A stretch of 64,000 nt of DNA from the NCBI RefSeq assembly GCF_018389385.1, contig NZ_CP062698.1, positions 1,863,501 to 1,927,500 on the forward strand, given 5' to 3'. Positions 3,887 to 16,624 of the stretch are shown in pieces. The notes under the pieces were generated by a model. The model did no database searches, was not told where the DNA came from, and saw only the letters and a list, made by a program, of their open reading frames with translations. Within the stretch, counting starts at the first letter, position 1. Every line of letters starts with the position of its first letter. The position numbers and the translations under genes were made by a program. The DNA comes from Anthocerotibacter panamensis C109. Lineage in GTDB: Bacteria > Cyanobacteriota > Cyanobacteriia > Gloeobacterales > Anthocerotibacteraceae.

Positions 3887-4595
3887 GTGGTCTGTCTGCC
3901 GGAAGCTGCGGCAGCGAGAACGGTTCGCATCCACGTCCTTGAGAGATTTAGCTGAAACAAAATAAACTTAGAATGTAATTTAAATTTATTCGGAATGAGC
4001 TTAATTGCATGGTTGCTCCAGGTAGGCTTGACTCTGAATTAGACCTTAACAGAATGAACAGTCTGTTATTTTCGAGGTCATTTTCAGGGGTGATAGATTT
4101 GCTGCGCAGGTAAAGAGGCAGCTTGAATTTTTGCATCATCGGGGCGGAATAAGGCTCTCTTGCAATCAAAACAGTCCTGATCCAAGAAGTAGCCGGTCTA
4201 CTCGGACAGGACGGGTTTGGCTGGCGCTATTCAGAGGGGACAGACATTAGGTTGAAGGCCCAAAAAGCTTGTGTAGAGCGACTTTACTAGACTGACGCAC
4301 CATTTTATAGCACTGGTATAGAAGCATACCTCTTAGGTTGAGCAGGGTCTTCCCTCAAGACCAAACTATGGCTCTAAATTCCAGAAGTGATAGTAAAGCA
4401 TAAGAGGGTAGTGCCATGGTCTTGGATTTACTTGGGGTCAGTATGTAGTTTTGACGAGAAAAAGTGGCATGGGATGTTAGTGGGTATACTATTCACTCAG
4501 TAGTTGCAGTGATACGCTTCGGTTGGAATCCTCGTCGATTCCAGCAAGTTCCCGGTCTAGTTCTCTTGCCTAGTCTTCGTTCTGCGCGAGCCCCC
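3887..4595. other. Gene-poor leader before the synthase operon
   Basis: About 700 bases that are clearly AT-richer than either side, especially 3950-4150. No convincing gene is present. A 73-codon minus frame at 3948-4169 has no recognisable features. A short plus frame ending at TAG around 4290 (includes LLGQDGFGWRYSEG) has a coding-like look but no start, and may be a gene relic. The operon promoter probably lies here; TTGACG at 4451 and TATACT at 4485 are 28 bases apart, too far to pair as -35 and -10. Confidence 0.4.
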
Positions 4596-7500
4596 ATGCA
4601 CCACTTCTCGTGTCTTTCGGTCACCCCTCTGGCTTTGGCCCACCCTGGATTAGCTGTCGCAACCATACGCGCGGGGGGCGTTGGTATCCTAGACCGGGAA
4701 TTTTGTACTGAGGCTGACCTCGCTCAGGCCAAAAGCAACTTGCAGATGCTACTTCAGGAGCGCGGGAAAGCTGGAGGGCTGGGTCTGCGCCTCAGGTGCG
4801 ACCAAATCGCCGCCAGCACTGACCTATTGGAACTCCTAGCTCAGGTCCCCCACTGGCTTATCCTCAGCGGCTGGGACGCCACTACGCTCCCGGAAGCTCT
4901 TGCCGCGCTACCGGAACACCCGGAGCGCACGCTGCTGATGGAGGTTATCGCGGTTGGGCAGGTATCCGTGCTGGATGCGGTACCCTGTGCAGGGCTGGTC
5001 GCCCGAGGCCATGAGAGCGGGGGTTGGGTCGCAGAGGACCCGGCATTTATCCTCACGCAAAAACTGTTAGCCAGCCAATCGCGCCCTGTCTACGTGCAGG
5101 GGGGAATTGGGATTCATACGGCGGCGGCTTGCCGCATGGCGGGGGCGGCGGGGATCGTCCTCGATGACCAGTTGTGGCTGATGCCTGAGTCGCCGCTCCC
5201 GGCCTCCTGGCAGCGCCACCTCAAAAATTTGAGCGGTCAGGAAGCCATCGTCCTTGCCGAACGCCTTACGCCATCTTGCCGCGTCCTTGCCCGCCCAGGA
5301 TTCCATGCTATCGCTGCGCTGCAAAAGCTCGCCGACCATGGGGAGTTGGCGGATGCTTCTGGCTGGCAACAGAGTGCCCAACCCCTGCTGGGCTGGGGCG
5401 AACCGAGCGACTTAGCTTGGCCGATGGGGCAGGCTGTGGGGTTGGCGGACCCCTTGCACGAGCGCTTCAAAACGACAGGACGTCTGATCCAGGCACTGCT
5501 CCAAGCGAGTGCCGAGCATATCCAGACCGCCCAGCGCCTGCAACCGCTCCAGCCCGGAGCCCCACTCGCTCAGGCCCACAGTACCCGCTACCCGATTGTC
5601 CAGGGGCCTATGACGAGGGTGAGCGACACGGCTGAATTTGCCCATGCTGTAGCCTGTGCCGGGGCTTTGCCCCTGTTGGCGCTCGCGCTGTTGCGCGGCG
5701 TGCAAGTCGAGAGCCTGTTGCGCAAAACCCGTGACTTGATGCAGGGAGCCGCTTGGGGCGTCGGGATTTTGGGCTTTGTCCCCCATGCTCTGCGCGAAGA
5801 GCAGACCAAAATTGTCCAAGCGATCAAGCCGCCTTTCGCCCTGATTGCCGGGGGGCGTCCCGACCAGGCCAAGCAGTTTGAGGCTGAGGGTATTGCTGCT
5901 TATATCCATGTCCCTACGGCAAGCCTGCTCAAGCTGTTTTTGGAACAGGGTGCCCGACGCTTCGTTTTTGAGGGGCGTGAGTGCGGGGGACATGTGGGGC
6001 CGTTGAGCAGTTTTCTGCTCTGGGAGAGCATGATTGAGACTTTGCTCCATCTGCCTGCCGGGATTGAGCCCCAAGCGATCCATGTACTCTTTGCCGGGGG
6101 GGTCCACGATGCCCGTTCGGCGGCCATGGTGAGCGCGATGGCGGCCCCTCTGGCTGAGCGGGGGATCAAGTTTGGTGTGTTGATGGGGACGGCTTATCTT
6201 TTTACGGAGGAGGCGGTGGCCTGCGGCGCGATTGTCAAGGGTTTCCAGGAAGAAGCCCTCCAATGCACCCGCACCATCAACCTTGAGACCGGGCCGGGTC
6301 ACGCAAGCCGCTGTGCGGTGACCGCCTTCGCCCATGAATTTTATGCGACGCGCCGCCGTATGGCCCTCTCCGGTAGCCCCGCCGAGGACATCAAAAACAC
6401 TCTCGAAGACCTGACCCTGGGCCGTCTACGGATCGCATCCAAGGGTCTGACCCGCGATGCTGAGGGCAAAATCATTCAGGTCCTGGAGGAGCGGCAACAC
6501 CGCGACGGCATGTACATGATTGGTCAAGTGGCGACGATGCGCGACCGGGTCTGTACGGTGGAGTACCTGCATCAAGAGGTCTCTGAAGCCAGTACCCGTC
6601 TGGTCTGTGAAGCAGAGGGTGGGGGTGAGGTGGTTCCTCCGTCACGCCCCTCTGACATCGCTATTGTCGGCCTTAGCACCCTGGTCCCCAAAGCCCATCG
6701 CCCTGAAGACTACTGGAAAAACATCCTTGAGCGCGTCAACGCCATCACCGAGATCCCCGCCCACCGTTGGGATTGGCGGCTCTTTTATGACGAGGACCGC
6801 AAGGCGCGCGACCGCATTTACTCGAAGTGGGGCGGGTTTATTGAGGACGTGACGTTTGATCCCTTGCGCTTTGGTATCCCCCCAGCTTCGCTCAAATCGA
6901 TTGACCCGATTCAGCTATTGGCGCTAGATGCGGTCCAACGGGCGTTAGCTGATGCGGGATACGACCGGGGCGACTTTGACCGCGAACATACTTCTGTGAT
7001 CTTTGGGGCAGCCACTGGTGCTGGGGATTTGGGGCATCAGTACGCGACTCGTTCTCACCTACCCCTCTTTGTGAGTGACCCGGCTACTCAAGCTTTTGAC
7101 CGTCTGCCGGAGTGGACCGAGGAATCCTTCCCCGGACTGCTGCTCAATGTGGCTGCCGGTCGGGTCGCCAACCGCTTTGACTTGGGCGGGACCAACTACA
7201 CGGTGGATGCTGCTTGTGCCTCGTCGTTGGCTGCCTTAAATCTGGCTATCGAAGAACTAGAGACTGGACGCAGCAATATTGTCATCGCCGGGGGGGTCGA
7301 TACCGGCCAGAGCCCCTTCGCCTATCTGACGTTTTGTAAAACCCAGGCCCTATCCCCACGCCAGCAACCCAAGGCTTTCGATAAAACCACCGATGGGATT
7401 GTGATCAGCGAGGGGATCGCAGTCGTCATCCTCAAGCGGTTGGCAGACGCCGAGCGCGATGGGGACCATATTTATGCGGTGGTTAAGTCGATGGCGGGCT

Positions 7501-10286
7501 CCAGCGATGGCAAAGCCATGGGTCTGACCGCGCCACGTCCGAGCGGACAGATAAGAGCTTTAGACCGGGCCTATCGAAAGGCGGGCTTCTCCCCCAATAC
7601 CCTGGGGCTCTATGAGGCCCACGGCACCGGAACCGCCGCCGGAGACCGCGCTGAACTGGAGACCATTGTCAAAACCCTCAAAACTCATCGCACCCGCAAC
7701 AAATCCTGCGTCGTTGGCTCGGTCAAGACGATGATCGGTCACACCAAGAGTTGTGCTGGGGTGGTGGGCCTTGTCAAAGCCGCGCTGGCACTGTACCACA
7801 AAGTTTTGCCCCCGCACATGGGAGTCGAAAAGCCCCTCGACCCCTTGGCGGACCCAGAGAGCCCAGTCTACCTGCTTCAGGAAGCCCGCCCCTGGTTTCG
7901 CCATCCCGACTATCCCCGCCGTGGCGGCGTGAGCGCCTTTGGCTTTGGCGGAACCAACTTCCACGCCGTCCTTGAAGAATATCAAGGCAGTCTCAAAGAG
8001 CCGGTTTTGGGGGCGAAAGCTTGGCCTCAGGAACTCTGCGTGCTCCGGGCTGCTGACCGGGCAGCCTTGATCCAGGAAATCCAGACGCTCCACACCGCCT
8101 TGGTAAAAGGGGCACAGCCCGCTTTGGGGGATTTGGCGTTTAGTCTGGCTGAGCGGGCGCAGGAGCGCTGGGATCAAAACGCCTGTCTATGCATCATTGC
8201 TCGGGACCTCACCCATCTGGGCGCCTGTCTAGAACAAGCCTTGACCCATCTAGAAGGCGCAGCGGACCCCTTACCCCTGCACATTCTGTTCAGCGAAAAG
8301 GCTGCCCTGCATAACCGTCACGTGGCCTTCCTCTTTCCAGGGCAGGGCTCCCAATACCCGGACATGGCCCGTGAACAGGCGCTTTACCTGCACGAATTGC
8401 GGGCTGCGGTCGAAGGAGCCGACCGCCAACTCCAGGAAACGTTCCCCGACCTGTTGAGCCAATACATCTATCCGCCTAGCCCCTTCTCCCCGTCCGATGA
8501 GGCGCGCCATCAAGCTCGCTTGATGGATACTCGGATAGCACAGCCCGCTTTGGGGACCATAATGGTGGGCTATTTGGACTTTTTAGCCCGCTTGGGGATC
8601 GACCCATCGATGTTGGCGGGGCACAGCTATGGAGAGTACGTAGCCCTCTATGGCGCAGGAGCCCTGGGGCGAGCAGAGTTCCTCGCACTCTCAGCTACAC
8701 GGGGGCGGGTCATGGCTACCGCCTGTGCCGCGCAGGGAGGAGCCATGGCTGCAGTCCAAGGCGACCGGGCTCAGGTCCTGGAATATCTCCAGGGTATGCC
8801 AGGAGTTACCCTCGCCAACCACAACAGCCCCCAACAGTCCGTCATCTCTGGCACCCGCGAAGCGGTGCAGACCGTCGTGGACCGGCTCAAGGCCCAGGGG
8901 GTCCAGGCAAAACTCCTTGCGGTGACGGGGGCTTTTCACACGGCACTGGTAGCTGAGGCTCAAGGCCCTCTGGCTGAAGCTATCGCCCAGTCTGCCCTCA
9001 CCACGCCCCAGATCCCGGTCTATGCCAATGCCGACGCCCGTCCCTATCCCTTAGACGAAGAAGCGGTACGCCGCCAATTGAGCCAGCACCTGACGAGCCC
9101 CGTGGAATTCGTCGGTCAGGTCCGGGCGATGCACGCAGACGGAGCTAGGGTCTTTCTGGAGGTTGGCCCCAAGAGCGTCTTGACCAAGCTTGTCGGCCAG
9201 ATTTTAGTAGGCCAAGAGCATATAGCGGTCGCTCTAGATGGTCATGGGGGTGGGCTCAGGGGTCTGCTCCTGGCTTTGGGGACCCTGATCACGCAAGGCG
9301 TGGGCCTCAAACTAACCGCCTTGTTTGAAGGGCGGACCCATCGTTCTTTAGACCTCAAGCGGCTTTTGGAGCAGACCTGCCCTGCTCCTCTACCGCCCGT
9401 AGCTTGGTTAGTCAATGGGGGCAATGTCCGCCCCTACAGCCAGTCCGTTGGTCACCCCGGCAAACTTCCGCCCCTGGATGTGACTACTGCTCAGACCGAG
9501 GCTCATGCCCAGCGTAATGGTTCGAGCCCGTCTGTAGCCCCTGTCGCGCTACCTGCTGCTAACCAGACACAGCCCCCGCTTCCTGTAGTTGCCGCAACCG
9601 TTCGCCCGGTTGCACGCGCTCCCCACAAGTCTTCTACCCCACCCAATCTAGCCATGGCATCCCAAACACCCCAGCCCGCTCATCCAGCCCCCGTTTCACC
9701 CCCGTCGCATGTAGCTCTAGCCGGTTACCAAGCCTACCAGGAGACCATGCGCCAGTTCCTGAGTCTCCAGGAGCGCGTCATGGTTCAGTTCCTGAGCGGG
9801 GTGCAGCCCGCGCCGGGAGCGCTCCCGCAACCTGCTGCACCCATCGCGCTTCCAGCAGCCCGTCCCAGCGCGGCGCTCCCCGTTGCTCCTGCGCCGCCAT
9901 CCCGCCCTGCCCCTGTGGTGGTCACGGCTCCCGCTCCCCCGACTCCAGCTCCTGTGCCCCCTGTAGCTGCCGCGGCAGCCCTACCCGCCCGTGCCCAGTT
10001 GACCCAAACTTTGCTCCATCTGGTGAGCGAGCGTACCGGCTACCCCGCCGAAATGCTGGGCCTCGACCAGGACATGGAAGCGGAGTTGGGCATCGACTCG
10101 ATCAAGCGCGTCGAGATCTTCGGAGCCCTCCAGAAAAATCTACCCACCGCGCTGGCTAGTCGCGTCCAAGACGAGATGGAGTCCTTCACCCAGGTCAAGA
10201 CCTTGGGCGGTATCGTCGATGCGCTTTTGTCCTCAGCACCCGCTACTCCCGCTGCGGTCGCCGGGGGAGCTGGCCTGGGAAAGTAA
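4596..10286 (+). CDS. PfaA-like synthase, front half: NPD-NPD-KS-AT-ACP
   Basis: Multidomain iterative PKS/PUFA-synthase-like protein of 1896 residues from ATG 4596 (GTG 4464 would add 44 atypical residues). Domains: two FabK/PfaD-like nitronate-monooxygenase barrels, ~5-290 (degenerate) and ~330-640 (YPIVQGPM, GGHVGP, FAGGV); ketosynthase ~685-1120 with C874 in DAACASS, HGTGT and the KTMIGHT histidine; acyltransferase ~1240-1560 with GHSYGEY; a Pro/Ala-rich linker with a short helix (MRQFLSLQERVM); one acyl carrier domain ~1798-1875 with the phosphopantetheine serine S1835 in LGIDSIKRVEI. Enoyl reductase is normally a separate PfaD protein; here NPD domains are fused in front. The frame ends at TAA directly behind a slippery heptamer, and its missing KR-DH half continues in the -1 frame. 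The product is not predictable. Confidence 0.9.
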   Translation: MHHFSCLSVTPLALAHPGLAVATIRAGGVGILDREFCTEADLAQAKSNLQMLLQERGKAGGLGLRLRCDQIAASTDLLELLAQVPHWLILSGWDATTLPEALAALPEHPERTLLMEVIAVGQVSVLDAVPCAGLVARGHESGGWVAEDPAFILTQKLLASQSRPVYVQGGIGIHTAAACRMAGAAGIVLDDQLWLMPESPLPASWQRHLKNLSGQEAIVLAERLTPSCRVLARPGFHAIAALQKLADHGELADASGWQQSAQPLLGWGEPSDLAWPMGQAVGLADPLHERFKTTGRLIQALLQASAEHIQTAQRLQPLQPGAPLAQAHSTRYPIVQGPMTRVSDTAEFAHAVACAGALPLLALALLRGVQVESLLRKTRDLMQGAAWGVGILGFVPHALREEQTKIVQAIKPPFALIAGGRPDQAKQFEAEGIAAYIHVPTASLLKLFLEQGARRFVFEGRECGGHVGPLSSFLLWESMIETLLHLPAGIEPQAIHVLFAGGVHDARSAAMVSAMAAPLAERGIKFGVLMGTAYLFTEEAVACGAIVKGFQEEALQCTRTINLETGPGHASRCAVTAFAHEFYATRRRMALSGSPAEDIKNTLEDLTLGRLRIASKGLTRDAEGKIIQVLEERQHRDGMYMIGQVATMRDRVCTVEYLHQEVSEASTRLVCEAEGGGEVVPPSRPSDIAIVGLSTLVPKAHRPEDYWKNILERVNAITEIPAHRWDWRLFYDEDRKARDRIYSKWGGFIEDVTFDPLRFGIPPASLKSIDPIQLLALDAVQRALADAGYDRGDFDREHTSVIFGAATGAGDLGHQYATRSHLPLFVSDPATQAFDRLPEWTEESFPGLLLNVAAGRVANRFDLGGTNYTVDAACASSLAALNLAIEELETGRSNIVIAGGVDTGQSPFAYLTFCKTQALSPRQQPKAFDKTTDGIVISEGIAVVILKRLADAERDGDHIYAVVKSMAGSSDGKAMGLTAPRPSGQIRALDRAYRKAGFSPNTLGLYEAHGTGTAAGDRAELETIVKTLKTHRTRNKSCVVGSVKTMIGHTKSCAGVVGLVKAALALYHKVLPPHMGVEKPLDPLADPESPVYLLQEARPWFRHPDYPRRGGVSAFGFGGTNFHAVLEEYQGSLKEPVLGAKAWPQELCVLRAADRAALIQEIQTLHTALVKGAQPALGDLAFSLAERAQERWDQNACLCIIARDLTHLGACLEQALTHLEGAADPLPLHILFSEKAALHNRHVAFLFPGQGSQYPDMAREQALYLHELRAAVEGADRQLQETFPDLLSQYIYPPSPFSPSDEARHQARLMDTRIAQPALGTIMVGYLDFLARLGIDPSMLAGHSYGEYVALYGAGALGRAEFLALSATRGRVMATACAAQGGAMAAVQGDRAQVLEYLQGMPGVTLANHNSPQQSVISGTREAVQTVVDRLKAQGVQAKLLAVTGAFHTALVAEAQGPLAEAIAQSALTTPQIPVYANADARPYPLDEEAVRRQLSQHLTSPVEFVGQVRAMHADGARVFLEVGPKSVLTKLVGQILVGQEHIAVALDGHGGGLRGLLLALGTLITQGVGLKLTALFEGRTHRSLDLKRLLEQTCPAPLPPVAWLVNGGNVRPYSQSVGHPGKLPPLDVTTAQTEAHAQRNGSSPSVAPVALPAANQTQPPLPVVAATVRPVARAPHKSSTPPNLAMASQTPQPAHPAPVSPPSHVALAGYQAYQETMRQFLSLQERVMVQFLSGVQPAPGALPQPAAPIALPAARPSAALPVAPAPPSRPAPVVVTAPAPPTPAPVPPVAAAAALPARAQLTQTLLHLVSERTGYPAEMLGLDQDMEAELGIDSIKRVEIFGALQKNLPTALASRVQDEMESFTQVKTLGGIVDALLSSAPATPAAVAGGAGLGK

Positions 10287-10342
10287 CAACGGTAGAGGCT
10301 ACCCCCCGCTACCATTTCCAGCCGCGCCCCGAGCCTCTACCG
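10263..10342 (+). promoter_or_regulatory. Candidate programmed -1 ribosomal frameshift signal
   Basis: Four elements lie in order. A purine tract GGGGGAG at 10263-10269 could pair with 16S rRNA. Seven bases later comes the heptamer GGGAAAG at 10277-10283, in the correct phase (G GGA AAG). The zero-frame stop TAA follows at 10284-10286. After a 6-base spacer, an 11-bp perfect stem pairs 10290-10300 with 10332-10342, around a 31-base loop. GGGAAAG is the heptamer used by the phage lambda G-GT frameshift, and an upstream SD plus downstream stem is the arrangement known from dnaX. A -1 slip joins the ACP end to KR-DH, giving a 2740-residue fusion. Confidence 0.75.
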
Positions 10343-12817
10343 AAAACGGCACCCCTCATACCCCAGGGACTGTTCCTCATCACAGAAGACGGTCTATCTG
10401 TCGCGCCTCGGGTTGCGGAACTCCTCCAGCGCTTGGGGGCTAAAACAGCCCTCCTCCCCACGACTTTGCTGCAATCACCGGAAGCCTTGGCCCAGGAGGT
10501 CGCTCGCCTGCGGTCCAGTCTGGGAGCGGTGGCAGGCATTGTTCATCTAGCCGCCTTGCTGCCTATGCCCATGCCCGAACGTCTTACGGATTGGCGCACG
10601 TGCACCCAAATCCAGGCTAAGAGTCTCTTCCATTTGGTCCAGACCTGCGCTACCGATCTACACGCTGCCGGGGCCAGCAATTGCGGACAGGTGGTGGCCT
10701 GTGCGCTACTCGGGGGCGCGTGGGGGCGCAATGGCACCTCGGGGGCGGGCCTACCCACTGGGGGTGCAGCCAATGGCTTGCTCAAGACCCTACGCATCGA
10801 ATGGCCTGCGGTTCCCGCCAAGACCATCGATTTTAATGTGAGCCTCCCGCCCGAGCACATGGCCCAGTGCATCCTGGATGAACTGCTCCACCCCAGTCTG
10901 CACACGGAGATTGGCTATCCCACAAAGGTGCGTACTGTCTTTGATCCGGCTCCTGCGGTACGCACACCCACAGGCCCGGTCCAGCTCGAACCCCAGCGCG
11001 ATTGGGTGGTTCTGGTGACCGGAGGAGCGCGGGGGATTACCGCCGAGATCACCGCCGAACTGCTCGTTCCGGGGATGACTTTGATCCTGGTGGGCCGCGC
11101 CCCCGAACCCCAGCCCGAAACCCCGCTCACCGCAGGCATCGAAGACATAGCCCGACTGCGGCAGGTCTTCCTGGAGCAGGCGAAGCGCAAGGGTGAAGCG
11201 CTCAAGCCCGTGGCGATTGAGCAAAATATCCGGGACCTCCTCCGGGACCGGACGATCCGCACCAATCTGGCCCAGTTTCGGGAGCAGGGCGCCCTCGTCG
11301 AATACTGTCCGGTGGACGTGACCCATGAAGCCGCTTTGGGGGAACTCATCGCGGGGATCTACCAGCGCCATGGTCGCTTGGATGCCGTGATACATGGGGC
11401 GGGGATCATTGAAGATAAGCGCATCGTGGACAAAAACCCCCGTTCTTTTGACCGGGTTTTTGACACTAAGGTGGATAGTATCTTTTTACTTAGCCGTTAC
11501 CTGCGCCCCGAGCGCTTGAAACTGTTGGTACTTTTTGGCTCGGTGGCGGGGAGTTTTGGCAATTTGGGTCAGGTGGACTACGCTGCTGCGAACGAGTTGG
11601 TCAATCGTTTTGCCTGGTATCTGGACCGCCAGTGGCCTCAGACGCGGGTGGTGGTGCTCAATTGGGGGCCTTGGGATGTCACGGGCATGGCCTCGGACGC
11701 AGTCAATGAGCAATTTAAGGCGCGGGGCGTCATCCCTATCACTCCCGCCTCCGGTCGTCGTTTCTTCGCTGAAGAGATCCGCTACGGGCACAAGGGCGAC
11801 ACTGAGCTGGTCGTCGGCACCTTTGAAGGTCCTTCCCAAGAAGCTTATGCTGTTGCTGCCCTGCCTATTCCTTCTTCTGCCCTTCACCCTTCTGCCCTTC
11901 ACCACCGACCCTTCTTGTATACCTCCGAGCCCCAGATCCAGCCGAACAGCACCATCACGCTTGAACACACTTTTTCTCTAGCCAACGATCCCTACCTGGA
12001 GGACCACTACCTGGACGGGAAATTGGTTCTGCCCGCAGCGGGAGCCCAGGAATGGCTTGCCCAGTTTGTCCAGCAGGCTTGGCCCGAGTGGATCGTCTGG
12101 GGTATACAGGAACTCAGGGTCCTCAAGGGGATCAGTTTCCCTCGTGAAGGAAGCCAGTCGGTGGTGCTCCGGGCTAGAGCAGCCAGTCACGCCGATGCCG
12201 AGCAGCTAGAAGTCCAGGCGGAGATCCTGGACCCTGCCCGCAAACTACCTTTTTACCGGGGGACCGTCTTGCTCCGGTCGCAGCCGCCCCCGCCCGCCCC
12301 ACCGCAGTTTCCTTGCCTAGCCGGGGGGACAGAACTAGATGCCCGCCAACTCTACCCTGACTATCTTTTTCATGGCCCTCGTTTCCAACTCATCCAGGCC
12401 ATCTGTATGGATAAGACGGGAGCTGATGTCACTGTCCTCCCCAGCCGCCCTCAAGATTGGGTTACGGGCTACACGCCAACCCCCTGGCTATTTGATCCCG
12501 GAGTGATGGATGTCTCGCTTCAGGTGGCCCTGGCTTGGTTGCGGATCTATGGCGGGGTCAGCGGGCTTCCCACTTGTTTCGGTAAAGTCCTACGCTACGG
12601 GCAGGGTGCACTTGTCGGTCCGCTGCGGATAAATTTCTGTGGTCGGGAATTTAACGGCCAACACTTTCGCTACGAGGCCGAAGTTTTGGATGCAAACGGG
12701 GCTTTATGCCTGCAACTTTTGGATATTGAAGGCTCCTGTAGCGCCCAACTCAACCGGCTCAACGCCCGTTGGCGCGAGGAGAATGGCTATACATCCCCCA
12801 ATGGGAGCAGTCTATGA
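10283..12817 (+). CDS. PfaA-like synthase, rear half: KR-DH (read by -1 frameshift)
   Basis: 844 residues in the -1 frame relative to the preceding gene. After the in-frame stop at 10157 there is no ATG, GTG or TTG until TTG 10433. Yet the codons before it already encode a typical ketoreductase structural subdomain (GLFLITEDG, VAELLQRLGAK), so translation most likely enters by frameshifting at 10277-10283. The KR domain has VTGGARGI for nucleotide binding and the catalytic serine and tyrosine in FGSVAGS and QVDYAAANE. Next comes a hotdog PKS dehydratase, with histidine in DHYLDGKLVLP (~12003) and aspartate in DVSLQ (~12506). It would reduce and dehydrate beta-keto intermediates on the ACP. 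Its stop overlaps the next ATG (ATGA). A 795-residue protein from TTG 10433 would lack part of the KR fold. Confidence 0.88.
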   Translation, partial: VTTVEATPRYHFQPRPEPLPKTAPLIPQGLFLITEDGLSVAPRVAELLQRLGAKTALLPTTLLQSPEALAQEVARLRSSLGAVAGIVHLAALLPMPMPERLTDWRTCTQIQAKSLFHLVQTCATDLHAAGASNCGQVVACALLGGAWGRNGTSGAGLPTGGAANGLLKTLRIEWPAVPAKTIDFNVSLPPEHMAQCILDELLHPSLHTEIGYPTKVRTVFDPAPAVRTPTGPVQLEPQRDWVVLVTGGARGITAEITAELLVPGMTLILVGRAPEPQPETPLTAGIEDIARLRQVFLEQAKRKGEALKPVAIEQNIRDLLRDRTIRTNLAQFREQGALVEYCPVDVTHEAALGELIAGIYQRHGRLDAVIHGAGIIEDKRIVDKNPRSFDRVFDTKVDSIFLLSRYLRPERLKLLVLFGSVAGSFGNLGQVDYAAANELVNRFAWYLDRQWPQTRVVVLNWGPWDVTGMASDAVNEQFKARGVIPITPASGRRFFAEEIRYGHKGDTELVVGTFEGPSQEAYAVAALPIPSSALHPSALHHRPFLYTSEPQIQPNSTITLEHTFSLANDPYLEDHYLDGKLVLPAAGAQEWLAQFVQQAWPEWIVWGIQELRVLKGISFPREGSQSVVLRARAASHADAEQLEVQAEILDPARKLPFYRGTVLLRSQPPPPAPPQFPCLAGGTELDARQLYPDYLFHGPRFQLIQAICMDKTGADVTVLPSRPQDWVTGYTPTPWLFDPGVMDVSLQVALAWLRIYGGVSGLPTCFGKVLRYGQGALVGPLRINFCGREFNGQHFRYEAEVLDANGALCLQLLDIEGSCSAQLNRLNARWREENGYTSPNGSSL

Positions 12818-15800
12818 ACCAAGATATCGCCATCGTGGGGATGTCCGCCCTCTTTCCGGGGGCTGGGGATCTGGCGAGCTATTGGCACAACATCGTGCGC
12901 AAGGCCGATTTTGTCACTACGGCGCCCCCCGCATGGACTGGACCCTACCTAGACCCCCATACCGATGCCCTAGAGCGGATCTACACCGACCAAGTAGGGC
13001 TTTTGGGCGATTTGGCGGAATTTAATCCCCTTGACTTTGGCATCCCCCCCAATACGGTGGATGGGTCTGAGCCGGACCATTTCCTGGCTATCAAGCTCGC
13101 CCGCGATGCCCTGTGGGATGCTGGGTACCAAAACCGCCCCTTCGATGGCGCGCGGACAGGGGTGATTTTGGGGCGGGGCTCCAATCCCAACCGCGGTCAT
13201 GCAACCGGCTTCCAGTACGGGCTGGCGCTCGATCAGACCATGGATATCCTCCATACGCTGCTGCCGGACCTGGATACAGAAACCCGAGTGCGGCTGCGGC
13301 AGGAACTCCAGGCCAGTCTCCCTCAGGTCCGGCCTGAGGCAGCGCCGGGGCTCGTCTCCAATGTCGCCACCGGACGCATTGCCAACCGCCTCAACCTGAT
13401 GGGGCCAAACTATATGATCGACGCGGCCTGCGCCTCTTCGCTCATCGCAGTCGAACTCGCTATCCGCGAGTTGTTGCATGGCTCCTCGGACATGATGCTT
13501 GCCGGGGGCTGTCAGGGTTCGATGCCGCCGCAGATCTACATGCTCTTCTGCCGAATTGGGGCTTTATCGCGCGGTGCGATCCGGCCTTTTGATCGGCTGG
13601 CTGGGGGGACGCTTTTGGGGGAGGGAGTCGGGTTTTTGGTGCTCAAGCGACGGGCTGATGCCGAGCGCGATGGGGACCGGATTTACGCCATGCTCAAAGG
13701 GGTGGGAACTTCCAGTGACGGCAAGGCGCTGGGGCTACTCGCGCCGCGCTTTGAGGGGCAGGTGTTGGCTCTGGAGCGGGTTTATCAGCAAACAGGTCTG
13801 GACCCGAAGACGCTCACCTTGGTCGAGGCTCACGGCACCGGCATTCCCATAGGCGACCAGACTGAGATTCAGACCCTCAAGCACATCTTTGGTCAGCGTG
13901 AAGGGCTCCTGCCCACTGTTGGCCTCGGTTCGGTGAAGTCGATGATTGGCCACTGCATCCCCGCCTCAGGCGTGGCGAGCCTCATTAAAATGGCCCTCTC
14001 CCTGTACCACAAAGTTTTGCCGCCGACCCTGTGCACCGAGGTCAATCCCCAACTCGGGATCGAGCACACGCCTTTCTATATCAATACAGAAGTCCGCCCC
14101 TGGATTCACGGGAATCCTGAAGCGCCGCGCCGCGCAGGAGTCAATGCCTTTGGATTTGGGGGGATCAATGCCCATGCGGTCTTGGAAGAATATACCGGAC
14201 CTCAACCGACATGGGCGCGGCAAGTCCTGCGTCAGTGGCCTACGGAGTTGCTCCTCTTCTCTGGAGCTAGCCCCCAAGCGCTCCTAGCGCTGATCGAGCA
14301 GGTGCAACAAACCCTCCAAGCCCGCCCTGTGCCCTTGAGCGATCTGGCCTATACCCTGGCCCAACGTCCCGCAGCCCGCCATCGCCTCGCCTTGGTCGTA
14401 GAATCTAGCGCCGATGCCCAGAGCAAGCTCGAAAAAGTGGCCAAAAAATTGCGCGAATCCAGCCGGATTCCCAACCGAGCAGGCATCTTTTCTGCCCAGA
14501 CCGCAGAGGTAGCGGGCAAAGTCGCTTTTCTCTTTCCGGGGGAAGGGTCGCAGTATCCAGGGATGCTCGCCGATCTTTGCCTGTACTTTCCGCAGGTACG
14601 CTCCTGGTTTGATCAGTCCGACCGCTCGTTTTGGGGGCGTTGGGCGTATCTGCCCAGCCAGATCCTCTTCCCCCCGCCCACAACCCTGGGCACTGAAGCC
14701 CAAAAAGATCTGGCCGAGCAGATCTACTGGATGGATGTGGCGACGGAGACCGTTTTTACCTGCGGGATGGCCCTCTACACGCTCCTGAGCGAATTCGGCA
14801 TTCGTCCCGACGCCATGGTCGGTCACAGTACTGGCGAACACACCGCCCTCATCGCTTCCGGGACCATCCAGTGGCAGTCCGAGGCGGATCTGGTCACGAT
14901 GAAGCACAATCTCAACCAAATGTACAAAGACCTGGATGCCACCGACCGCATTCCCAGGGGCGTCTTGATCAATGTCGGAGCCATTCCAACGGGTTTTCTC
15001 GAGGCATTGGTCGCACATTCCCCAGACGACTTCTATCTGGCTATGGATAACTGCCCTAACCAAGCCATTCTCTTCAGCCGCCCCGAGACCAGCGAAGCCG
15101 CCCTCGCCAAAATTAAGGCTGCCGGAGGAATTTGCACCCTACTCCCCTTTGACCGTCCCTACCATACGCCCTGGTTCAAGGATGTCGAGATGGCCCTTAG
15201 GGGACTCTACGCCCATTTGGAGATGGGTCCCGGCCACACGCCCCTCTACAGTTGCGCGACCGGTGCCGCCTTCCCGTCCGCGCCCGACGCCATCCGCACC
15301 GTAGCAGCCAAGCAATGGTCCTGCCGGGTGCGCTTCCGCGAAACGATAGAAGCGCTCTATGCCGAAGGGGTGCGGACCTTTATCGAAGTAGGGCCGAGCA
15401 GTAACCTGAGTGCTTTTGTGAAAGACATCCTCCATGGGCGCGAACACCAGATCCTCCCGAGCAATGTCCAGCGCAAAAGCAGCCTCGAACAGATTCATAA
15501 CTTGCTGGCACGGCTGTGGGTCAGTGGCATGACCCTGGACCTCAGCCCTCTCTACCGCGAGCGGGAACTGTGCGAAATCGCCCTCGACAGCCAGCCTGCT
15601 CCCCCTAAGCCCAAAGGCACGATGCCGGTGAACCTGTTGTTGCCCAAGATGCACCTACCAGCAGCGTTTACCCAGCCCGCGCAAATGCTGGTTCCTCCCG
15701 CCCTGGTGGTCCCGGAGCTGCATGTCGCCTCCCCTATCGCAGACTTTATCGTCCTGGAGGATGAGCTATTCCTTGACGACGACAGGGACGCGCCCGCAGA

Positions 15801-15951
15801 AAGCTATAGCCACGAGGTGGTCAAGGACCAAGACCCGCACCTCACCGCCCTGATGGGCCACTTTGACCTGATGCAGGAGTTTCTGGTCACCCAGGCCAGG
15901 GTCGCAGACTCCTTCTATGCGCAGCCGCCGGAGAAGAGCGATGACGGATAG
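12814..15951 (+). CDS. PUFA/glycolipid-synthase-like KS-AT protein
   Basis: 1045 residues from ATG 12814, which overlaps the previous stop codon by four bases and follows GGGAG. The ketosynthase (~1-430) keeps all three catalytic residues: C206 in DAACASS, the histidine of EAHGTG and the histidine of KSMIGH. It is therefore not an obvious chain-length factor. The acyltransferase (~570-880) has FPGEGSQYP and nucleophile motif GHSTGEH, plus YHTPW. The C-terminal ~150 residues are acidic and end in a helix (MQEFLVTQARV) like the post-AT helix of the first synthase, possibly a docking element. The layout resembles PfaB and the Hgl heterocyst-glycolipid KS-AT proteins; it would act with the first synthase on the same acyl chain. 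Confidence 0.9.
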   Translation: MNQDIAIVGMSALFPGAGDLASYWHNIVRKADFVTTAPPAWTGPYLDPHTDALERIYTDQVGLLGDLAEFNPLDFGIPPNTVDGSEPDHFLAIKLARDALWDAGYQNRPFDGARTGVILGRGSNPNRGHATGFQYGLALDQTMDILHTLLPDLDTETRVRLRQELQASLPQVRPEAAPGLVSNVATGRIANRLNLMGPNYMIDAACASSLIAVELAIRELLHGSSDMMLAGGCQGSMPPQIYMLFCRIGALSRGAIRPFDRLAGGTLLGEGVGFLVLKRRADAERDGDRIYAMLKGVGTSSDGKALGLLAPRFEGQVLALERVYQQTGLDPKTLTLVEAHGTGIPIGDQTEIQTLKHIFGQREGLLPTVGLGSVKSMIGHCIPASGVASLIKMALSLYHKVLPPTLCTEVNPQLGIEHTPFYINTEVRPWIHGNPEAPRRAGVNAFGFGGINAHAVLEEYTGPQPTWARQVLRQWPTELLLFSGASPQALLALIEQVQQTLQARPVPLSDLAYTLAQRPAARHRLALVVESSADAQSKLEKVAKKLRESSRIPNRAGIFSAQTAEVAGKVAFLFPGEGSQYPGMLADLCLYFPQVRSWFDQSDRSFWGRWAYLPSQILFPPPTTLGTEAQKDLAEQIYWMDVATETVFTCGMALYTLLSEFGIRPDAMVGHSTGEHTALIASGTIQWQSEADLVTMKHNLNQMYKDLDATDRIPRGVLINVGAIPTGFLEALVAHSPDDFYLAMDNCPNQAILFSRPETSEAALAKIKAAGGICTLLPFDRPYHTPWFKDVEMALRGLYAHLEMGPGHTPLYSCATGAAFPSAPDAIRTVAAKQWSCRVRFRETIEALYAEGVRTFIEVGPSSNLSAFVKDILHGREHQILPSNVQRKSSLEQIHNLLARLWVSGMTLDLSPLYRERELCEIALDSQPAPPKPKGTMPVNLLLPKMHLPAAFTQPAQMLVPPALVVPELHVASPIADFIVLEDELFLDDDRDAPAESYSHEVVKDQDPHLTALMGHFDLMQEFLVTQARVADSFYAQPPEKSDDG

Positions 15952-16624
15952 CCTGCTCTTTGCGCCCTCCTACACCCGACCTTGGTCGCCTGCGCCCTTC
16001 CCCTGCCGTCGCTTGGACCGGGATTTTCTGCTGGAGCCCGCCGCCCTCAAAACCCTGGCGGATCGTCTACTCACTGCGGCAGAGCGAGATTTCTGGGACC
16101 GTCTGCCCATCCGGGGACCGCGTGCCCGCGAGTGGCTCTTGGGCCGGGTTGCTGCCAAAGAAGCGCTGATGCAATGGTTTCAGCAAGAGCAGGGGGTCTC
16201 TCCCACTGACTTTACCCTCTTGCCCGATGCTCAGGGCAAACCCCGACTCCAGGGGACTCTAGCGCCCTTACCTGAGGTTTCCATCAGCCACAGCCGGGGC
16301 CACATCCTGGCTGCCGTCGCGCCCACCCCCCTCGGGGTAGACCTAGAGCGGCTGGATGTCGTGCGCTTCGACGACTGGTTCCACTTGGCCTTTGGCGCGG
16401 AGGAACTGGCGCTGATACCCGGTCGGGGGCCGTTGCTCGTCGGGGGCTGGTGCGCGAAAGAGGCTGCCGCGAAAGCCTGGGGCACTGGGTTTCAGGGGAA
16501 TCCTAAGGATTGGGTCATCACCAGCTTCACACCTGACGAGATCACCGTACAGCACGGGGATCAGACCTTCCGGGTCCGGTTGTGGTACGCAGCGCAGGAG
16601 GTGGTGGCATGGTGTCAGCGATGA
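15941..16624 (+). CDS. 4'-phosphopantetheinyl transferase, Sfp/HetI type
   Basis: 227 residues with the three Sfp-family signatures: SISHSRGHILAA, the magnesium-binding GVDLERLD and WCAKEAAAKAWG. It transfers phosphopantetheine from CoA to the serine of carrier domains, here presumably the ACP of the first synthase and the free ACP that follows. The ATG at 15941 has GGAGA upstream and overlaps the KS-AT gene by 11 bases; an earlier ATG at 15917 would add an unlikely Arg-rich leader. Location inside the operon indicates dedicated activation of the pathway. Confidence 0.93.
   Translation: MTDSLLFAPSYTRPWSPAPFPCRRLDRDFLLEPAALKTLADRLLTAAERDFWDRLPIRGPRAREWLLGRVAAKEALMQWFQQEQGVSPTDFTLLPDAQGKPRLQGTLAPLPEVSISHSRGHILAAVAPTPLGVDLERLDVVRFDDWFHLAFGAEELALIPGRGPLLVGGWCAKEAAAKAWGTGFQGNPKDWVITSFTPDEITVQHGDQTFRVRLWYAAQEVVAWCQR

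Follow-up and report, generated by a model that had tools for sequence, protein, structure and literature searches.

A probable programmed -1 ribosomal frameshift at the ACP-KR joint of a PfaA-like synthase gene in Anthocerotibacter panamensis and its relatives

Why does a PfaA-like synthase gene change reading frame in the middle of the chain that it encodes? The 64,000-nucleotide (nt) stretch of the Anthocerotibacter panamensis C109 genome analysed here (NZ_CP062698.1, positions 1,863,501 to 1,927,500; hereafter the window, whose numbering is used throughout) carries such a gene, broken between its acyl carrier protein (ACP) and ketoreductase (KR) domains. The host genome is a single contig of 4,187,797 bp, and its family, Anthocerotibacteraceae, also includes Candidatus Cyanaurora. 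As judged from sequence, a programmed -1 ribosomal frameshift at the ACP-KR joint is very probably the explanation.

The original prediction, made from the letters of the window, had described a GGGAAAG heptamer in slip phase directly before a TAA stop codon, a Shine-Dalgarno (SD)-like GGGGGAG seven bases upstream and an 11-bp stem beginning six bases downstream. All of these were found in place (Table 1), the spacer between GGGGGAG and heptamer reading CTGGCCT. The minimum free energy of the stem is -22.9 kcal/mol, and that of shuffled sequences -10.0 kcal/mol (sd 2.5; z -5.2; 0 of 200 shuffles as good). Within the 1943-codon frame, the sole in-phase strong heptamer (XXXAAA[A/G]) is the one located exactly at the frame change. 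Among the 41 tRNA genes found in the genome by Rfam search and ARAGORN, tRNA-Lys(UUU) is the only lysine tRNA; it reads AAG, while GGA is read by tRNA-Gly(UCC). Both tRNAs are able to re-pair after a -1 step (AAG to AAA, GGA to GGG), and G_GGA_AAG is highly shift-prone in Escherichia coli (PMC5009743).

The same gene was compared across the cyanobacteria in a set of 27 loci, the window included. GGGAAAG is in phase at the same spot in 22 of them, 161-224 nt downstream of the last ACP motif, and is always spelled NNG GGA AAG (CTG or TTG GGA AAG). Sixteen loci are split like the window, in that frame 0 runs into a stop 0-33 nt beyond the heptamer and the -1 frame encodes KR (the window, G021, G216, G374, G739, G678, G766, G634 from Trichocoleus FACHB-40, G589, G695, G758, G803, G833, G836 from Sphaerospermopsis, G854 and G874). 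Six others with GGGAAAG are fused in frame (G015, G056, G292, G254, G387 and G596, the last from Prochloron), and here it is the -1 slip that meets a stop, 2-23 nt later. The linker of G056 (locus L064), LGKSEVNGLGK, contains two in-phase copies of GGGAAAG 24 nt apart (oriented positions 8035 and 8059), perhaps a small duplication. Four Gloeobacter-like loci are also fused and read CCA AAA AAA TCC, which is A_AAA_AAA plus an overlapping in-phase C_CCA_AAA; their -1 stop lies 14 nt past the heptamer, and no other loci have stems as strong as theirs (z -7 to -8), which include two compensatory pairs. A strong in-phase heptamer is found in the ACP-KR linker of 26 of the 27 loci, and a canonical one is absent only in Cyanaurora. 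In-frame relatives, which the original prediction had regarded as a possible objection, do exist, but 10 of the 11 keep a slippery heptamer together with a -1 stop within 2-23 nt.

These loci bear directly on whether the frame change is an artefact. A base lost in GGGAAAG, through sequencing error or in a pseudogene, would create an artificial frame change; inserting a single G or A there would make the frame continuous, and long-read assemblies are error-prone at short homopolymer runs. However, 16 genomes, each assembled separately and several of them complete (including the single-contig G803 and G854), share the identical frame change at this heptamer, and the same split occurs in complete plasmids of other phyla (Persicobacter psychrovividus, Streptomyces albogriseolus). 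Nearly all loci keep a KR-dehydratase (DH) frame of about 830 uninterrupted codons, and the heptamer is retained in fused genes as well. The 16 parallel cases rule out an assembly error across the gene family, and we regard error or decay as a very improbable account of the locus.

The nucleotide string might also be conserved merely as a protein motif, the Leu-Gly-Lys of the linker, since LGK is present in 22 loci. The synonymous codon positions are, however, invariant. When loci are treated as independent, the per-gene usage frequencies for xTG, GGA and AAG, multiplied over these 22 loci, give 10^-34.8, and 10^-25.5 if the test is limited to GGA and AAG. The Gloeobacter-like proteins have PKK in place of LGK and still possess a heptamer; a real frame change is located at that point in 16 loci; and the SD-like site is kept although the residues it encodes vary (QEE, QEA, GEE, TGGE). 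A protein motif alone is thus an extremely improbable explanation. On the same assumption of independence, in-phase XXXAAA[A/G] heptamers have a density of 0.0139 per codon in the linker versus 0.00075 elsewhere in the same open reading frames (ORFs; 69 loci), and the best duplex with the anti-SD sequence 5-14 nt upstream averages 8.9 kcal/mol versus 2.5 kcal/mol at random same-phase positions (Fisher p 1e-19 over 23 loci).

A third possibility is that two separate proteins are made, with KR-DH translated by reinitiation or from its own start and the heptamer being incidental. PfaA splits have previously been described as two genes (PMC3098273), and a TAATG or TGATG stop-start overlap is located at +33 to +42 nt in the split loci G216, G374, G739, G678, G695 and G874. 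In the window the open -1 frame spans 10160-12817, directly after a last upstream stop at 10157-10159, and as the original prediction had stated there is no ATG, GTG or TTG in it before the TTG at 10433, 147 nt past the frame-0 stop. The first such codon is at +84 in G021 and at +54 in G758. Where the overlapping ATG exists, it encodes a Met that is conserved in fused relatives too, and the SD-like site, about 60 nt ahead, is too distant to serve that start. Both SD and heptamer are kept in fused genes, where no start is needed and which the stop-start overlaps cannot explain. Two independent proteins are therefore improbable; reinitiation may contribute in a minor way in those relatives that have TAATG or TGATG, and has no place in the window.

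Polarity provides a strong argument for programmed frameshifting. The best tree requires 6 changes between the split and fused states, of which at least 3 fall on well-supported branches. The split window locus is sister to the fused one of Cyanaurora with support of 99/98, and Prochloron (fused) is grouped with two split loci with support of 100/97. The following mechanism would account for these observations. A ribosome would synthesize the enoyl reductase (ER), ketosynthase (KS), acyltransferase (AT) and ACP domains and reach G_GGA_AAG, where GGGGGAG behind it could pair with the anti-SD of 16S rRNA and a stem-loop, where present, would stand ahead. A fraction of ribosomes would slip from GGA AAG to GGG AAA and continue into KR-DH, giving the full PfaA-like chain, whereas those that do not slip would terminate at TAA and release a short (ER-)KS-AT-ACP form; ER-KS-AT-ACP would be common to both. 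In fused relatives the outcome would be reversed, frame 0 giving the long form and the slip the short form, as in dnaX. Mixed assembly of short and long chains might then set the number of condensing and ACP units per reducing (KR-DH) unit. As polarity has flipped repeatedly with the signal kept, the efficiency is predicted to be near 50%, a value at which a flip would hardly alter the ratio; a ratio near 1:1 would resemble that of dnaX and csoS2.

Several points weigh against this interpretation. Cyanaurora, the nearest relative, is fused and has GGGGGAG at the heptamer position; SD, stem and -1 stop are retained there, but the signal is probably weak or lost, since the A-site codon could not re-pair properly. 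Taken by itself, the SD-like site of the window is borderline (p 0.05), and the sites of G021, G374 and G766 (3 of 23 loci) are weak and not significant. Of the three elements whose conservation the original prediction had put in question, the heptamer (22 of 27 loci with GGGAAAG, 4 with A_AAA_AAA) and the stop (16 split loci) are conserved, but stems, strong in the window and in Gloeobacter, are not significant, weak or absent in many loci. A stem as a universal element is thus not supported. The binomial and Fisher p-values and the codon, density and SD figures overstate the case by treating loci as independent, and for this reason more reliance is placed on polarity flips with the heptamer kept and on codon invariance. 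No strong in-phase linker heptamer was found in the negative controls, namely the hglE2-like loci L110-L123 and L132, the Streptomyces loci L143/L144, and L146-L148; many hglE2-like and some actinobacterial relatives are without any site. Finally, the anatomy of the locus, the phase and conservation of the heptamer, the reversal of polarity and the codon constraint are established by the sequence itself, and it is from these that we infer the slipping, the ratio of products and their function.

Domain assignment of both frames bears out the split between ACP and KR-DH that was claimed for the synthase. The domain order KS-AT-ACP-KR-DH, a neighbouring KS-AT gene and a phosphopantetheinyl transferase are all present (Table 1). 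The domains of the short KS-AT-ACP product claimed by the original prediction were found, but that description is incomplete: in canonical PfaA systems PfaD is a separate protein, whereas here an ER region is fused N-terminal of KS, so that the short form would be ER-KS-AT-ACP. TIGR02813 (omega_3_PfaA) is the best long model for both halves, with 847 and 228 bits when scored apart; neither half separately reaches the curated cut-off of 1010, which applies to the whole chain, and because of these scores the synthase is named PfaA-like rather than PfaA. The first start in the frame-0 open frame is the GTG at 4464, and the true start is uncertain. Downstream, the ATGA overlap at 12814-12817 suggests translational coupling of the KS-AT gene, for which the TTG at 12769, assigned mechanically as the start, is probably wrong.

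Table 1. Positions of the frameshift signal, the synthase gene and its neighbours in the window.
Feature	Position	Strand	Remarks
Frame-0 ORF, ER (NMO/FabK-like)-KS-AT-ACP; predicted short product if no slip	4464..10286	+	Pfam/NCBIfam domains
PfaD/FabK-like enoyl-reductase region	5586-6570	+	Residues 374-709 of first ORF
ACP (PP-binding), last domain ahead of the frameshift site	10005..10169	+	Residues 1848-1902
SD-like GGGGGAG, putative upstream stimulator	10263..10269	+	Counterpart AGGAGG or similar in most relatives
Slippery heptamer G_GGA_AAG, putative -1 shift site	10277..10283	+	In frame-0 phase: CTG GGA AAG TAA
Frame-0 TAA stop, predicted end of short product	10284..10286	+	Directly after heptamer
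11-bp stem, 5' arm	10290..10300	+	Six bases past heptamer
11-bp stem, 3' arm	10332..10342	+	
-1 frame portion of predicted long product: linker VTTVEATPR..., KR, PS-DH	10283..12817	+	
Next operon gene, KS-AT (PfaC/HglC-like)	12814..15951	+	ATG overlaps preceding TGA as ATGA
4'-phosphopantetheinyl transferase, predicted to charge ACP	15917..16624	+	

The phenomenon is broader than the original prediction stated, in that it includes reversed polarity, paralogs and other phyla. The host genome and Gloeobacter genomes also contain paralogs that are split at the same ACP-KR joint, again into the -1 frame. Those of L098-L102 have A10 tracts, and their frame 0 ends in KKN or KRGLTP before the stop. 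In L098, a second PfaA-like synthase of the genome (G000:C1 24000-40000), the A10 tract is located at the ACP-KR joint (reverse complement 8306-8315), the frame-0 stop lies 15-18 nt past it and the -1 frame encodes KR. Another Gloeobacter paralog (L103-L105; reverse complement, about 8871, 9895 and 10062, respectively) is split into -1 at GCC AAA AAA AAG; this string contains A_AAA_AAG, the heptamer of dnaX, and GGAGGGA precedes it by 9-10 nt. In the hgl-type loci L136-L138 the heptamer is A_AAA_AAG, and a -1 stop follows it by two bases.

The A8-A11 tracts in L098-L102, L124, L133 and L134 are of the type used for transcriptional slippage, which Thermus dnaX employs (PMC5009743), and raise the question whether the second frame arises in the transcript instead of on the ribosome. 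This is possible for the A-tract paralogs. It is unlikely at GGGAAAG, where the longest run is three, the SD conserved upstream is an element that ribosomes recognise and the spelling of the heptamer fits tandem tRNA slippage; as a general source of the second frame, transcriptional slippage has very little probability. Some other loci show irregularities of their own. In the hgl-type L134 and L131, with A10-A11 tracts, the ACP and KR frames are offset the other way (+1 or -2 would be required), for which transcriptional slippage, tract-length error or decay are possible causes. A third PfaA-like synthase of the host genome, L097 (G000:C1 3803000-3822900), has an in-frame TAA within KR (reverse complement 13427-13429), past which the same frame codes on; decay, readthrough or a gene boundary are possible. 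In L106 (G018; reverse complement 7996-9243) the KR homology is broken by about 1.2 kb plus a frame change, and many Nostocaceae hgl loci similarly carry KR residues 1-221 and 232-707 on two ORFs.

Opposite polarities at the ACP-KR joint are also observed on plasmids of other phyla. The PfaA-like gene of Persicobacter psychrovividus is split at G_GGA_AAG, and that of Persicobacter JZB09 is fused with G_GGA_AAG kept and a -1 stop at +2. An actinobacterial pair shows the same opposition: L141 of S. albogriseolus pSALBX2 (about 6655-6668) is split at C_CCA_AAA after GGAGGTGG, and in L145 of Rhodococcus opacus pRho-G13 (about 3676), which is fused, C_CCA_AAA is followed by a -1 stop at +2. The PfaA-like genes of Beijerinckia and Methylosinus are fused with A_AAA_AAA at the joint, and a further five (L143, L144, L146-L148) are without a site. 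On balance, and with considerable reserve, we lean towards the view that the slippery site between ACP and KR is an old, general device of PfaA/Hgl-type synthases in Cyanobacteriota, Bacteroidota, Actinomycetota and Alphaproteobacteria. It would yield roughly equal amounts of short KS-AT-ACP and full chains; "split pfaA" and a single long pfaA would be two polarities of one dual-product gene, and the working enzyme would be a mixed complex.

In agreement with the original prediction, no report of frameshifting in polyketide synthase, Pfa or hgl genes was found in the literature searched, subscription papers being largely outside the reach of that search. The main text of the GeneTack survey names only polyketide cyclase among related terms (PMC3711429), and frameshifting is not mentioned in the texts of two recent surveys, one of hgl islands (PMC11804610) and one of hybrid Pfa clusters (PMC13291983). 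RerA of Rhodococcus erythropolis has been expressed and purified as a 219-kDa protein (PMC11563203). If the proposed mechanism is correct, this would be, as far as the literature search showed, the first programmed frameshift in a fatty-acid or polyketide megasynthase. Some synthases resembling those of polyunsaturated fatty acids, and related lipid synthases, would then be built from two isoforms of one gene, which present annotation, as either one gene or two, hides, and recoded or codon-optimised pfa-like clusters would silently drop one product. The repeated flips of polarity would offer a natural experiment on the product ratio that selection maintains.

The elements themselves are familiar: the combination of SD, heptamer and stem in -1 frameshifting is already known, as is split pfaA as a gene arrangement. 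The tail-assembly frameshift of phage lambda (G/GT) uses the heptamer G_GGA_AAG, and its long product is made by the shift, as proposed for the split genes here; it differs in serving a phage tail chaperone of unrelated protein function, and its efficiency is low. A close parallel is dnaX (tau/gamma), which like the window gene has an SD-like site about 10 nt upstream, an X_XXY_YYZ heptamer, a downstream stem and two proteins that share an N terminus, and which is known in both polarities in different bacteria (PMC5009743). Unlike dnaX, the present gene belongs to another enzyme class, GGGAAAG is its main heptamer, polarity varies within one family and the stem is not conserved throughout. In csoS2 of alpha-carboxysomes, one gene gives two about equal products through -1 frameshifting near 50% (PMC5009743); however, CsoS2 has a structural role, what the shift produces is the short form only, and no 5' SD stimulator has been described. 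Split pfaA of Types D and H is divided into KS-AT-ACP and KR at the same joint, Type D consisting of pfaA1 [KS-AT-ACP5] and pfaA2 [KR] (PMC3098273). Those halves are described as two genes, whereas here a slippery site joins them and ER is fused N-terminally. The HglE-type heterocyst glycolipid synthases are related KS-AT-ACP-KR chains, and slippery tracts occur at this joint in some paralogs; the hglE2-like loci are without the site, and the window gene represents a separate subfamily.

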